The notes under the pieces were generated by a model, which was not told the origin of the DNA, searched no databases, and saw nothing but the letters and a program-made list of their open reading frames with translations. A stretch of 64,000 nt of DNA from an uncultured Myxococcales bacterium (GTDB taxonomy: Bacteria > Myxococcota_A > UBA9042 > DTJE01): positions 1-64,000 of the forward strand of contig CAIZWN010000002.1 in NCBI GenBank assembly GCA_903936705.1. Direction: 5' to 3'. Numbering within the stretch: position 1 is the stretch's first letter; each line of letters starts with the position of its first letter. Position numbers and translations under genes: made by a program. Below, one piece after another: positions 894-5,961 of this stretch.

Positions 894-1862
894 TCACAGA
901 AGGCCGACTCGAGCCGCCACAGGCCAGAACTGAGGAACCCCGTCCGCCCCAACCGGTGCGTGTCCCGACATGTGGCAGTTATGGCAGGCCCGCCGGCTGC
1001 GTTCCGTCGGGCCGGTCGCCTCGCCTGCGTGGCAGTAATCGCAGGCAGTGATGCCGGCGGAGGCCCCTTGCGGATCGAACCTGTCCTGGTAGTCGGCGAC
1101 GGCCGCCACGTGAGCGTTATGGATTGGCGACTTGTCCGAACCGAAGTCGTGACAATCGAGGCAGCCGAGCGTCGCCCCGTGGTCCTCGGCCATGAGATTG
1201 TGGCATCCTCCGCATCCTGGTCCGAACGAGGATATCCGGAAATCGGCCTGCTCGGACGGGCGGGCCCCCGATTTCCAGAGTCTGGAGTGGGCATTCGTTC
1301 CCCCATCCAGCAAGGCGCCCGGTCGCAGGGAACCTTTCACCGGCGGCACCTCCACAGCCTCCGGGAAACCCGACACGTCCGTGCCGGTATCGACCCACCC
1401 ATGGCACGCCGGCGCACAGTCAGCCGCTCCGGTGAAGGCCTTGCCCGGCGACGGATACAGTCGCAGACCGTGTCCGGTCCCGTCCGCCGAGAGCGGGTGA
1501 CACGAGGCGCATTCCCCCCCCGCAGTGTGGACGCCACGGCGCGGCCACGGCGTCCCCCACCAGTTCCCGGGTTCCGGGAACAGCGGATCCACGCGCACGA
1601 GTCCCTGCGCCGCCGCCGCCGCCCAGGCCCCTGGCGCCTTCCCCACACCGGCCCCTGCCTCGGCCAGCGCGGCCAAGTCGTGGCACGTCCCGCACTCGCT
1701 CACCAACGCCGGAATCTCGGGCGCAGGGGACTCGTCGGGGAAAACGTCCGCAGCTTCCGGCAGGTCAGCCTGCTGCTCGACGCGGCCGCAGGCGGTCGTC
1801 AGCAGCACCCCCAGCACCGCAGCCCACCGCACCCGCTTCGCTATTCGTTGCGTCCGCGTCAT
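894..1862 (-). CDS. Seven-heme c-type cytochrome lipoprotein
   Basis: Begins MTRTQRIAKRVRWAAVLGVL and carries a lipobox ending at Cys25 (LTTAC). About 322 residues contain six CXXCH heme sites (CGTCH, CASCH, CGGCH, CLDCH, CDYCH, CHNCH) plus one CAPACH site, a rarer CX3CH spacing, so up to seven covalently bound hemes. Its ATG overlaps the TGA of the upstream small-subunit gene (ATGA), which implies translational coupling. Downstream of a GMC dehydrogenase and its small subunit, it should take electrons from the flavin and pass them towards the respiratory chain or an outer acceptor. In known FAD-glucose, gluconate and fructose dehydrogenases the cytochrome subunit has three hemes; seven is more. 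The start inside a longer open frame was chosen for the lipoprotein signal and the overlap. The physiological substrate is unknown. Confidence 0.85.
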   Translation of the reverse strand: MTRTQRIAKRVRWAAVLGVLLTTACGRVEQQADLPEAADVFPDESPAPEIPALVSECGTCHDLAALAEAGAGVGKAPGAWAAAAAQGLVRVDPLFPEPGNWWGTPWPRRGVHTAGGECASCHPLSADGTGHGLRLYPSPGKAFTGAADCAPACHGWVDTGTDVSGFPEAVEVPPVKGSLRPGALLDGGTNAHSRLWKSGARPSEQADFRISSFGPGCGGCHNLMAEDHGATLGCLDCHDFGSDKSPIHNAHVAAVADYQDRFDPQGASAGITACDYCHAGEATGPTERSRRACHNCHMSGHAPVGADGVPQFWPVAARVGLL

Positions 1863-2452
1863 GGCATCCACCCATTCCCGGTCAGCTCCGCGCATACCGC
1901 CACTCGGAACGACGCCTCCGGCAAGTGTCTGAAGCCCAGGTTCGGCCCGGGATATCCGACGTATCGCAAGCCGATGCCGTTGTAGGCGCCGCCAAAGAAG
2001 GCAGACCGGATCGCCCGGAAGGCCAGGCGCAGCATGGGAAGCTGGTCCTGGGCGGTCACCAGCACCTGCAGGCGCTGCAGGTAGGGAAGGTCCGCAAAGG
2101 CCGAACCGTAGGCGTCGGTCGCAATCCCGTCCAGGGCCAGCGCGAACAGGTCCGCGTACTTCCGGAACGGAAATGACCCGTCCAGCAGGATGTTCATCGA
2201 GCACGCCTCCAGTGCGCCGGCCGTCCCCTCCGGATCCGTCGCCGGCCCCGGCACGACGGTGTCGAGCATGGCCCCCAGCGTCCGCTCCACGTCGCCCAGG
2301 GGCTGCAGGCACGCGCCAGGCAGCGGATCACGCGCGAACTGTGTCCCAGCCCATGCCGCCTCGCCCGCCCTGGCAATCGATTCCCCAACAGCTCCAAGAA
2401 TCATCGCTAGCGCCCCGCCACCGGCCGTGAGAAGGAAGTCCCTACGCTCCAT
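1859..2452 (-). CDS. Gluconate 2-dehydrogenase subunit 3-like small subunit of GMC dehydrogenase
   Basis: The start chosen is MERRDFLLTAGGGALAMILG. The RRDFL signal resembles the Tat-type leaders of GMC small subunits. The roughly 197-residue protein is otherwise helical with no cofactor motif. Established knowledge: FAD-dependent gluconate, fructose and glucose dehydrogenases have a small subunit with a Tat signal that carries the folded, signal-less flavoprotein across the membrane. The adjacent GMC protein lacks its own signal peptide, which fits this hitchhiker role. The gene lies 10 nt after the GMC stop and overlaps the cytochrome start by 4 nt. The family assignment rests on context, leader and size rather than on a diagnostic motif. 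Confidence 0.65.
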   Translation of the reverse strand: MERRDFLLTAGGGALAMILGAVGESIARAGEAAWAGTQFARDPLPGACLQPLGDVERTLGAMLDTVVPGPATDPEGTAGALEACSMNILLDGSFPFRKYADLFALALDGIATDAYGSAFADLPYLQRLQVLVTAQDQLPMLRLAFRAIRSAFFGGAYNGIGLRYVGYPGPNLGFRHLPEASFRVAVCAELTGNGWMP

Positions 2453-2462
2453 CGCTTCCTCC

Positions 2463-3896
2463 CTAACTCGCTGCCAGCGCCACCGCGATGCGCTCTGCAT
2501 TCGCCGCGATTGTGTGCGCCGGGTTCACGCCCGTCCCACCAGGTACCGACGCGCCGTCGCTGACGAACACACCCGGGTGCGACCGCAACTCGCCTTCGGG
2601 GGTGCAGGGCGCGCGCTCCCCGTCGTCGCCGATGCGACACGTGGCCAGTGGATGGGCGTCGCCATGCTCGTAGTTGTCGCCACCGGTTCGCAGCAGTTCC
2701 GCCCCGTTCGCGTCGGCGATCTGGCGCCCCACGCCGGCGACGCGCGCAATGTATGCCCTCAGTCGATCCGTCAGCGGCAGGTCGAACTGCACCACGCCGT
2801 CGCCATCCACCGTCACAGTGCCTTCGCCATCAACCAGCCCGATGGCCAGCGACGGGAACAGGTGCGTCGCGTACTGGTCGCGCACGTAATGTTTGAACGG
2901 CACGCCCATCGGAGCCGAGGGCTCTCCCTTCTCGCTGAACACGTCCATAGCCGCCACCAACGCAGGCGGCCCGGCGCCAGGATGGATCGTGATCCGGTGC
3001 TCGTCCCAGAAGGCGTAGGTGATGATGCCGGCGTTGTTGCGCCCCATGAACGGGTACGTAGGAGCCAGGGAATCCGGGACACGCCACAGAAAGGCAACGT
3101 CGCCGTTCTGGTTCAGGTTCTTCCCGACCTGCGGATGCAGATCCTTCATCCACGGTTTCGATCGCAGCAGGATTCCCGGCGTCTCGAGCGCGCTGGCGGC
3201 CAGCACCACGCGCTCGCCCCTGGCCGTCCGCTGGACGTTCCAAGGGTCGAAGTAGGCGACCTTCCAACCGGTCCCGTCGGGTTCAAGGTGGTGTACGCGG
3301 CACTTCACGCGGAACTCGGCCCCGGCGGCCTCGGCTCGCGGAATATAGTTGACGCCCAGGTGCCTCTTGCGTCCGAAGGGACAGCCGCACATGCAGAAGC
3401 CGCACTGGAGGCAGTCATGGATCGGGTACATCGACCGGTCGGCGGTCTTTCCCATCGCGGCCATCATCTTCCCGAAAATCCCCCCGGCGCGAGGCACGTC
3501 CGACCACGAAGCGCGGACGATGTCCATCTCCTGCTCGACTTTGGCATAGAACGGGTCCATGACCGCACGCGTGATCGAGGCCGGCCAGACGCGGTACCCG
3601 TCCCGGTCCTTCCACTCGAAGACCTCGGATGGCGAGCGCAGCATGGCCGCGGCATAAGTCAGCGAACCGCCGCCCAGGCCCCTGCCATAACGAAGGATGA
3701 CGTGGTAGTCCTTCGAGGTGTAGGTCACGAACAGCCGGGACTGAGCCTTGAAAGACCAGTCCTGCACGAAGTCCTTCTGGGCAAGACGCTCGCCTTGTTC
3801 CAGGCACAGGACCGATCGGCCCGCTTGCGCCAGCCGCAGGGCCGGGATGGCGCCCCCGAAGCCGGATCCCACGATCACGACGTTCCGGTCGTCCAT
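2463..3896 (-). CDS. GMC family FAD-dependent oxidoreductase (large subunit)
   Basis: Begins MDDRNVVIVGSGFGGAIPAL, a classic FAD dinucleotide-binding GxGxxG fold. An AGAGGAG ribosome site lies 9 nt before this ATG, which favours it over an upstream in-frame start at 3944. A second GMC signature appears as GRGLGGGSLTYAAA (near residues 71-84). The C-terminal block has HPLATCRIG and NPAHTIAANAE, supplying the expected active-site His and Asn region. Residues 162-172 read CLQCGFCMCGC followed by Pro, a CX2CX2CX3CP arrangement as in ferredoxins. Similar Cys blocks occur in ChoD/cholesterol-oxidase-like GMC proteins, and I cannot tell whether an Fe-S cluster is bound. With the next two genes it forms a likely three-subunit alcohol, sugar or sterol dehydrogenase that reduces cytochrome c rather than oxygen. 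The substrate is not predictable. Confidence 0.88.
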   Translation of the reverse strand: MDDRNVVIVGSGFGGAIPALRLAQAGRSVLCLEQGERLAQKDFVQDWSFKAQSRLFVTYTSKDYHVILRYGRGLGGGSLTYAAAMLRSPSEVFEWKDRDGYRVWPASITRAVMDPFYAKVEQEMDIVRASWSDVPRAGGIFGKMMAAMGKTADRSMYPIHDCLQCGFCMCGCPFGRKRHLGVNYIPRAEAAGAEFRVKCRVHHLEPDGTGWKVAYFDPWNVQRTARGERVVLAASALETPGILLRSKPWMKDLHPQVGKNLNQNGDVAFLWRVPDSLAPTYPFMGRNNAGIITYAFWDEHRITIHPGAGPPALVAAMDVFSEKGEPSAPMGVPFKHYVRDQYATHLFPSLAIGLVDGEGTVTVDGDGVVQFDLPLTDRLRAYIARVAGVGRQIADANGAELLRTGGDNYEHGDAHPLATCRIGDDGERAPCTPEGELRSHPGVFVSDGASVPGGTGVNPAHTIAANAERIAVALAAS

Positions 3897-4609: not shown

Positions 4610-5002
4610 TTATCCCCGACGGAGTTTCAGCCCCTCGATGTGCTGGAAGTGGGCGTCCAGCGAGAACAGTTCGAACTCGTGACGAAGGCACACTTGCGCG
4701 ACCAGCAGATCGGTCAATGGCAAGGTAACCCCGCGCTCGCGCATGGATGCACCCAGGTCGCCCGCCGACTCCCAGTCGGCCGAATCCACTGGGACGTTTG
4801 GCACCGCGTTGAACAGGTCCAGGACCTTGCTGCGCTCGCGGTCGCGCAGACCCACACGCAGTTCGGCGCCCACCACGTCGCAGCGGACGACTCGATCCTC
4901 CCGCAACAGGTCGCCGACTGCCTCGACGACGGCCGCCGTCCTGCCGCGCAAGGCGTCGACCCAGACCGAAGTATCCAGAAGTACCTGCGGTCTATCGCTC
5001 AT
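4610..5002 (-). CDS. vapC: VapC-type PIN-domain toxin RNase
   Basis: Begins MSDRPQVLLDTSVWVDALRG; about 130 residues, the usual VapC length. PIN-domain acidic residues are visible: LLDTSVWVD near residue 10, GAELRVGL in the middle, and PLTDLLVAQ then SLDAHF near the C-terminus. PIN toxins cleave tRNA or rRNA with Mg2+. Its ATG lies 10 nt inside the antitoxin gene, so the pair is overlapping and coupled. It sits inside a decayed mobile segment between transposase and integrase relics. The reading frame is intact and may still be functional. Confidence 0.85.
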   Translation of the reverse strand: MSDRPQVLLDTSVWVDALRGRTAAVVEAVGDLLREDRVVRCDVVGAELRVGLRDRERSKVLDLFNAVPNVPVDSADWESAGDLGASMRERGVTLPLTDLLVAQVCLRHEFELFSLDAHFQHIEGLKLRRG

Positions 5003-5237
5003 CGCGATGCTCCTCGCCAAACACCCTCTTCTCCTTCGCAGCCTCTGCCGCACCGAGGGACGAGACAGCCTCCTCATCGATGTCTACCTTGCCGAGCATA
5101 GAGGCCAGACGCCGCAACTTCTCGCGACGGATCTGTTCGTCCACGGCCCGCGCCACGGCGGCAGTCTTGGTCCTGGCCCCGGTGAGGCGCATCAGGACAT
5201 CCACCTTCGCTTCGTCCAGGACCACGTTCGTGCGCAT
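4992..5237 (-). CDS. vapB: VapB-type antitoxin
   Basis: Begins MRTNVVLDEAKVDVLMRLTG and is about 81 residues long. The short N-terminal strand RTNVVLD followed by a helical KTAAVARAVDEQIRREKLRR segment matches the ribbon-helix-helix antitoxins paired with VapC. The acidic, helical C-terminus should wrap the toxin. It lies directly upstream of vapC and overlaps it by 11 nt. A 7-bp inverted repeat that overlaps its predicted promoter fits autoregulation by the VapBC complex. Confidence 0.8.
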   Translation of the reverse strand: MRTNVVLDEAKVDVLMRLTGARTKTAAVARAVDEQIRREKLRRLASMLGKVDIDEEAVSSLGAAEAAKEKRVFGEEHRDER

Positions 5238-5266
5238 CGCGACCTCATGCACAACAACCAACACGT

Positions 5267-5295
5267 ATTTTGTACGCTTCGTGTGTACAAATCAA
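5267..5295 (-). promoter_or_regulatory. vapBC promoter with inverted-repeat operator
   Basis: On the minus strand, TTGATT (5295-5290) is followed after 17 nt by CAAAAT (5272-5267), a plausible sigma70 promoter 30 nt before vapB. A perfect inverted repeat TTTGTAC / GTACAAA (5269-5275 and 5285-5291, 9-bp spacer) covers the spacer and both hexamer edges. A bound repressor would exclude RNA polymerase, the standard arrangement for toxin-antitoxin autoregulation. Confidence 0.5.
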
Positions 5296-5434
5296 GGCTA
5301 GGAACTGCCCCTGAGAACCGCGCGAACCCGGAAACGTTGACTGGGCTGCAAACGACCTCGCCAAGGCAGTCTGATGACCGACCAGTAGGCCAGTCAACGC
5401 TGTCCAGCTATTTGGACGCAGCAACTCGGTCGGT

Positions 5435-5864
5435 CCACCACAAGGCGACCATGGAAAACCGGAAGAAGAAGCTGCCGACCGGGCCCAGCGACCTGATCTT
5501 CCCCGCCAGGGATGGGAAGCTGCGACACGTGTCCGAGCTCGTGAGGCCCTTCCACATCGCCCTGAAGGAGATGGGCATCACGCGCCGCCTCACCATTCAC
5601 GGGATGCGGCGCACCTACAACAACCTGGTGCGGCAAGCCGAGACGGACACCATCATCGTGCAGTCCATGACGGGGCACTCCGACGACCGGATGACCCAGC
5701 ACTACAGTCACGTCTCACTTGACGAAAAACGCCGGGCGCTGGAGAAGCTGTTCGGCCACATCGGGATGGCCCCGGGACTCCGGGAATCGGCCAGAATTGG
5801 GGATTTGATTGGGGATCACGTGCAGGAGACCAAACCATCCCCCTCGAAGACCCTACCTAATTGA
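5435..5864 (+). pseudogene. Tyrosine recombinase / phage integrase, C-terminal fragment
   Basis: The frame ends with a recognisable catalytic C-terminus: HGMRRTYNNL (the HxxR box), MTGHSDDRMTQHYSHVSLDE (second His and catalytic Tyr), then LEKLFGHI. Upstream of about 5435 the open frame is antisense to vapBC and not integrase-like, so the N-terminal DNA-binding domain and first catalytic Arg are lost. The remnant stops 26 bp from the 3' end of tRNA-Val. Since tRNA 3' ends are frequent attachment sites, a decayed integrative element is likely. No start codon can be assigned. Confidence 0.7.
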
Positions 5865-5889
5865 TTGCGATTTCGAGGAGTTCCGTGGG

Positions 5890-5961
5890 TGGGCGATACT
5901 GGGATTGAACCAGTGACTTCCACCGTGTGAAGGTGGCACTCTCCCGCTGAGTTAATCGCCC
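5890..5961 (-). tRNA. tRNA-Val (anticodon CAC)
   Basis: The minus strand folds into a complete cloverleaf of 72 nt. The acceptor stem pairs GGGCGAT with ATCGCCC. The D stem is ACTC/GAGT, the anticodon stem CCACC/GGTGG has the loop TTCACAC (anticodon CAC, reading GUG), and the T stem ACTGG/CCAGT has the loop TTCAATC. The discriminator is A and CCA is not encoded. A strong promoter lies upstream at 5981-6008. Confidence 0.95.

Follow-up and report, generated by a model that had tools for sequence, protein, structure and literature searches.

The three-gene locus and its products

We analyzed a stretch of 64,000 nucleotides (the window) from an uncultured Myxococcales bacterium (NCBI GenBank assembly GCA_903936705.1, contig CAIZWN010000002.1, positions 1 to 64,000 of the forward strand) and focus here on three minus-strand genes at its left edge, some 890 bases into the contig. 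They form a predicted operon that codes for a flavoprotein of the GMC family (gmc), a small subunit with a twin-arginine leader, and a c-type cytochrome with seven predicted heme sites (Table 1). The genes are closely packed: gmc and the small-subunit gene are separated by 10 bp, the stop codon of the latter and the ATG of the cytochrome gene overlap as ATGA, and clear ribosome-binding sequences precede both gmc and the small-subunit gene. A first-pass annotation of the same sequence had given these gene positions, the RRDFL leader, the close spacing and overlap, and a set of six CXXCH sites plus one CX3CH, all of which proved correct on re-inspection. In a comparison with the closest relative (L010), the ratio of nonsynonymous to synonymous substitution (dN/dS) was 0.06 for gmc, 0.18 for the small subunit and 0.27 for the cytochrome, and purifying selection is acting on all three genes.

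Table 1. Positions in the window of the three genes and of motifs in their products (aa, amino acids; Fe-S, iron-sulfur)
Feature	Position	Strand	Details
gmc, GMC-family flavoprotein	2463-3896	(-)	477 aa; ATG, AGAGGAG upstream
Cysteine block C162-LQ-C165-GF-C168-M-C170-G-C172-P, candidate Fe-S site	3381-3413	(-)	reads CLQCGFCMCGCP
Small subunit, twin-arginine leader MERRDFL...ARA	1859-2452	(-)	197 aa; GGGAGGAAGCG upstream
Heptaheme c-type cytochrome, probable lipoprotein	894-1862	(-)	322 aa
Heme site 1, CGTCH (C57-H61)	1680-1694	(-)	C, C, H invariant
Heme site 2, CASCH (C118-H122)	1497-1511	(-)	C, C, H invariant
Heme site 3, CAPACH (CX3CH, C149-H154)	1401-1418	(-)	CX3CH in 6/7 trios; CTGCH in L012
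Heme site 4, CGGCH (C217-H221)	1200-1214	(-)	C, C, H invariant
Heme site 5, CLDCH (C234-H238)	1149-1163	(-)	C, C, H invariant in six complete sequences
Heme site 6, CDYCH (C274-H278)	1029-1043	(-)	C, C, H invariant
Heme site 7, CHNCH (C293-H297)	972-986	(-)	C, C, H invariant

The flavoprotein matches the Pfam families GMC_oxred_N (74 bits) and GMC_oxred_C (37.5 bits), and its closest relatives in the PDB are flavin adenine dinucleotide (FAD)-dependent glucose dehydrogenase, cholesterol oxidase and fructose dehydrogenase. The FAD motif is present, and His415 and Asn458 stand at the GMC catalytic positions, where they are kept in nearly all of the 25 GMC proteins that we compared. The enzyme is probably one that oxidizes alcohols or sugars. 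No signal peptide was found on this subunit. Its cysteine block has the ferredoxin-like form CX2CX2CX3CP, with a fifth cysteine (C170) within the X3 spacer, and C162, C168 and C172 align without gaps with C212, C218 and C222 of the FAD-dependent glucose dehydrogenase 6a2u, which we take to be the three ligands of its [3Fe-4S] cluster. C162, C165, C168 and C172 are invariant in all seven occurrences of the trio described below. The block is a candidate Fe-S site, and its sequence is compatible with [3Fe-4S] and [4Fe-4S] alike. C165 is also found in pairs of GMC protein and small subunit that lack a cytochrome and in other GMC relatives, while another branch has Arg, Ile, Thr, Ser or Ala at this position. 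Similar blocks occur in GMC relatives with no cytochrome gene nearby; we considered whether the block might be specific to the heptaheme system and rejected the idea, as it is widespread in GMC relatives. Being shared with pairs that have no cytochrome and with further GMC proteins, it is by these alignments an old family feature rather than an invention of the heptaheme system. In one such pair (L040, 6608-8293, minus strand, genome G010), the third cysteine of the block is replaced by Ser (CVHCGFSTQGC), and the Fe-S site may have been lost there.

In the small subunit, the two arginines and the phenylalanine of the leader are invariant in six homologues, and the TAT_signal model scores 16.9 bits, below its cut-off. 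A profile search of the PDB returned only chance matches to the ecdysone receptor. We were able to connect the protein to Pfam family Gluconate_2-dh3 (PF13618) through an intermediate, the small-subunit homologue of a Myxococcota pair (L041), which passes the cut-off of that family (25.7 bits, cut-off 23.4) and matches the profile of the window small subunit with an E-value of 1.7e-14. Moreover, an hhalign comparison of this profile with the PF13618 protein of a further locus (L042) gave 93%. By this transitive link through L041, the small subunit appears to be a divergent relative of Gluconate_2-dh3.

When the residues of the cytochrome were shuffled in 20,000 trials, the mean number of CXXCH motifs was 0.03 and the maximum 2, as against six CXXCH and one CX3CH (CAPACH) in the protein itself. 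The CX3CH at site 3 is very probably a true heme site, because the relative at L012 has a plain CXXCH at the same columns. When six complete sequences were aligned with two partial ones, 14 of the 15 histidines of the window cytochrome are invariant among the complete ones: seven lie within the heme motifs and seven outside them (112, 131, 192, 228, 248, 251, and 301), one for each heme. No methionine is invariant in the six complete sequences. The simplest reading of this pattern of seven additional histidines and no invariant methionine is that the protein carries seven bis-His hemes, as would fit its matches to Cytochrome_C7 (PF14522, 26.8 bits, cut-off 24.8) and Cytochrom_c3_2 (PF14537, 25.0 bits, cut-off 25), both of which are confined to its C-terminal part. 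Cys25, which follows a hydrophobic leader, is invariant in all seven cytochromes and suggests a lipoprotein; the window lipobox is only fair, and we regard a lipid anchor as probable.

Distribution and descent of the trio

We found the trio, complete or cut by a contig end, in 7 of the 379 sampled Myxococcota genomes used for all family searches (G000, which is the window's own genome, G060, G011, G021, G055, G181, and G171). These genomes span at least five genera, and the order gmc, small subunit, cytochrome is the same in every one. Within the class the trio is present in 7 of 52 genomes and is absent from close relatives of the same genus. Outside Myxococcota, distribution was assessed with a single scan of 84,980 species genomes, which detects close relatives only; it returned five, all of them Myxococcota. 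The flanking genes are unalike from locus to locus, and we rejected the possibility of a larger conserved cluster around the trio, since the flanks differ at every locus. Not only is the arrangement as uncommon as the first-pass annotation had proposed, but the genome-neighborhood search that it recommended also shows the trio conserved as a unit. That annotation would have been contradicted by cytochromes encoded apart from the GMC gene or by poorly conserved cysteines and heme sites; all seven heme sites are kept, as are the four cysteines, and among the 379 genomes no full-length cytochrome homologue was found away from a pair of GMC protein and small subunit. Partial cytochrome pieces do occur, namely a second piece in G181, one at a separate contig end in G171, and short matches in G110, G206, and G221.

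In a tree of GMC proteins, the trio members form one clade (support 100/100), whose sister group consists of GMC proteins paired with a small subunit and no cytochrome (support 97/97). The trio proteins cluster by family (f1, f3, and f41), which suits descent accompanied by repeated loss. One locus may record such a loss in the making: a short frame in G110 (L046, 6098-6352) runs from the opening residues of a GMC protein (IIVGSGFGG) straight into the final stretch of the cytochrome (CYNCRLSGHQPVDAQGWAHFW), and is apparently a deletion scar from which the middle of the operon has been removed. In a plasmid collection we found no relatives of the cytochrome and only distant ones of the GMC protein; where a small subunit is annotated beside these (L051, L052, L054, L076, and L080), it precedes the GMC gene. 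Just upstream of the trio of one relative lies a divergently oriented cytochrome gene with eight CXXCH motifs (L011, 1653-3143, minus strand), which has distant similarity, under the cut-offs, to the hydroxylamine/hydrazine dehydrogenase type (PF13447, NF052343).

Proposed enzyme and alternative readings

A close counterpart of the trio is the Burkholderia cepacia FAD-dependent glucose dehydrogenase (BcGDH; PDB 6a2u, 8grj). It likewise combines a GMC catalytic subunit, with cysteines placed as for a [3Fe-4S] cluster, with a small subunit that bears a twin-arginine translocation (Tat) signal and a co-encoded c-type cytochrome subunit. In BcGDH the [3Fe-4S] cluster accepts the electrons of FAD and is described as lying 7-8 angstrom from the third heme (PMC9727119; PMC5979317), which is ligated by His338 and Met386 (PMC9727119). 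The two systems differ in the cytochrome, which is triheme with His/Met ligation in BcGDH, whereas the window cytochrome, apparently with seven bis-His hemes, shows no detectable similarity to that subunit. The cysteine block of the window also carries a fourth cysteine, unlike that of BcGDH, and the GMC protein is shorter, at 477 residues against 545 for the chain in 6a2u. Fructose dehydrogenase (PDB 7w2j, 8jej) is another three-subunit flavocytochrome, whose large subunit is a GMC homologue with an aligned cysteine region; its cytochrome subunit is triheme, and a search of the PDB with the window cytochrome profile gave no significant match to it (E-value 0.32 for 7w2j_C). Closer to the window are the Myxococcota pairs of GMC protein and small subunit (L038-L041), with homologous small subunits and the same gene order; they have no multi-CXXCH gene within the flanks examined, and in three of the four the small subunit has a cysteine after the twin-arginine leader and could be a lipoprotein. 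Cholesterol oxidase and the mycofactocin GMC proteins, which share the fold, are the best NCBIfam matches, both far under cut-off and far below equivalog scores, and the definitions of these families do not include an adjoining multiheme cytochrome.

Taken together, these comparisons lead us to propose, with a probability of roughly two in three, that the trio is a periplasmic three-component flavocytochrome dehydrogenase built on the plan of the FAD-dependent glucose, fructose and gluconate enzymes, in which the triheme subunit has been replaced by an unrelated, c7/c3-like heptaheme cytochrome and electrons pass from FAD through the Fe-S cluster and the heptaheme protein to other cytochromes. 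The GMC subunit would oxidize a hydroxyl substrate at FAD by means of the His415/Asn458 pair. The small subunit, bearing the Tat signal, is likely to carry the folded GMC subunit out of the cytoplasm as a hitch-hiker, since the BcGDH small subunit is described in these terms (PMC9727119) and the window GMC subunit lacks a signal peptide. Assuming that the three proteins form a complex, the electrons, whose direction we take from homology, would go from FAD to the cluster in the cysteine block and on to the lipoprotein, where seven bis-His hemes could act as a low-potential chain and hand them over singly to multiheme cytochromes of the periplasm or outer membrane. We place the trio, on the basis of its sequence, as a variant of the wider three-subunit kind of FAD dehydrogenase and not as a member of the FAD-dependent glucose dehydrogenase family proper, because it lacks both a triheme His/Met cytochrome and a counterpart of the disulfide between the alpha and gamma subunits.

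This view modifies two proposals of the first-pass annotation. It had envisaged a heme wire longer than that of the three-heme subunits; the seven heme sites stand, and the wire is not a lengthened triheme subunit, given the E-value above and conserved ligands that point to bis-His hemes of c7/c3 type. The trio is better described as a GMC dehydrogenase with an unrelated heptaheme electron-transfer subunit. It had also suggested that the cysteine block might add an Fe-S relay. The block is indeed conserved, but a [3Fe-4S] cluster is already present there in the known FAD-dependent glucose and fructose dehydrogenases, and with the block shared by these enzymes and by GMC relatives, any such relay would be inherited rather than added.

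Several results weigh against the proposed enzyme. The window small subunit falls below the PF13618 cut-off, and no protein encoded in its own genome matches that family. AlphaFold models built from six-member alignments were of low confidence both for the small subunit (mean predicted local distance difference test score, pLDDT, 43.6) and for the cytochrome (mean pLDDT 41.2); a Foldseek search with the former gave a best E-value of 3.9 and was not used. The cytochrome fragment at a contig edge in G171 lacks His248 and His251, possibly through an assembly error. In BcGDH, Cys213 of the alpha subunit adjoins a cluster cysteine (PMC9727119) and forms a disulfide with Cys152 of the gamma subunit; this has no counterpart here, position 163 being Leu, Met or Arg in six trios. 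OmcA/MtrC proteins, which could receive the electrons, are common in the class (26 of 52 genomes) with or without the trio. Finally, the proximity of genes is no proof of electron transfer between their products.

Alternatively, the GMC protein and the small subunit could make up the enzyme by themselves, with the heptaheme lipoprotein acting as a free shuttle, in the periplasm or at the outer membrane, that serves several donors; the operon would then reflect co-regulation and not a stable trimer. Pairs with no cytochrome gene nearby in four sampled genomes, which probably can use other acceptors, agree with this idea, as does the faster evolution of the cytochrome relative to the GMC protein (dN/dS 0.27 vs 0.06). 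Nevertheless, it would be unusual for a general shuttle to be found at full length only beside the pair, as is the case across the 379 genomes, and the overlapping start and stop codons suggest translational coupling, so we consider a free shuttle unlikely. We regard as highly improbable the reverse flow, in which the cytochrome would feed the flavoprotein and the latter reduce a substrate: the potentials of bis-His hemes are usually low, and there are multiheme flavocytochromes, fumarate reductase among them, that work as reductases, but the flavoprotein belongs to the GMC family and has the His/Asn pair used in alcohol oxidation, and the matched GMC enzymes of solved structure are oxidases or dehydrogenases.

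A further alternative concerns the destination of the electrons. The lipoprotein could sit at the cell surface or dock to an outer-membrane conduit, delivering substrate electrons to minerals or partner cells. The genome of the window does encode OmcA/MtrC decaheme proteins above the NCBIfam cut-off and other multiheme cytochromes, some of them giant and one joined to a b-type cytochrome-like domain, so that electrons could in principle reach external acceptors and delivery there by the trio is possible. OmcA/MtrC matches occur in 6 of the 7 trio genomes and in 20 of the 45 others of the class; the statistical margin is slight (about 0.05, one-sided hypergeometric), and kinship among the genomes is a confounder. 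OmcA/MtrC is missing from G181 in spite of its trio, and the conduit genes lie on contigs other than that of the trio. We regard extracellular delivery as a tentative option on the less likely side. Doubtful in our view is the still broader claim of a distinct flavocytochrome dehydrogenase lineage restricted to certain Myxococcota. In such a lineage a GMC protein with a ferredoxin-like four-cysteine Fe-S site would pass electrons directly to a low-potential lipoprotein with seven hemes, and periplasmic alcohol or sugar oxidation would thereby be coupled to extracellular electron transfer without the involvement of reduced nicotinamide adenine dinucleotide (NADH) or the quinone pool.

Direct-electron-transfer biosensors have as their working parts bacterial FAD dehydrogenases that possess a cytochrome subunit, and in the enzymes described this subunit is of the triheme His/Met type. 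Our searches, which did not cover subscription papers, found no paper joining Gluconate_2-dh3 with multiheme, nor GMC oxidoreductase with multi-heme and c-type cytochrome. If the proposed enzyme is real, the electron-transfer subunit is swappable in evolution, with an unrelated seven-heme and probably low-potential chain in natural use. The trio would then offer a candidate enzyme whose wire is longer and whose operating potential differs, as well as a hint of how little-known freshwater and digester Myxococcota may link periplasmic oxidation to a multiheme cytochrome network.

Other multiheme cytochromes and neighboring genes

Elsewhere in the genome of the window, one region (L072, G000:C5:240000-254000) encodes an OmcA/MtrC decaheme protein, 13-heme and 14-heme proteins, and a protein in which eight hemes are combined with a b-type cytochrome-like domain. 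A sensor kinase gene lies nearby, and the region is a candidate extracellular electron transfer locus. Another (L071, 4213-13089, corresponding to G000:C44:189212-198088, plus strand) holds a giant multiheme cytochrome in a single frame of 2959 amino acids, with 62 CXXCH, 16 CX4CH and 3 CX3CH motifs and 81 distinct heme histidines. The protein is large and yet not a record, as proteins with more than 100 heme motifs are known from other phyla (PMC11495043). A third frame (L073, 3993-7958, on G000:C68) of 1322 amino acids has 28 CXXCH and 8 CX4CH motifs and belongs to the Geobacter-type CxxxxCH/CxxCH family.

In the window itself, a VapB antitoxin and a PIN-domain toxin are encoded as a pair upstream of the operon (4610-5264, minus strand). 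A frame of the Phage-integrase family (5007-5961, 285 amino acids) ends next to a tRNA-Val(CAC) gene, and is possibly the remnant of an integrated element.

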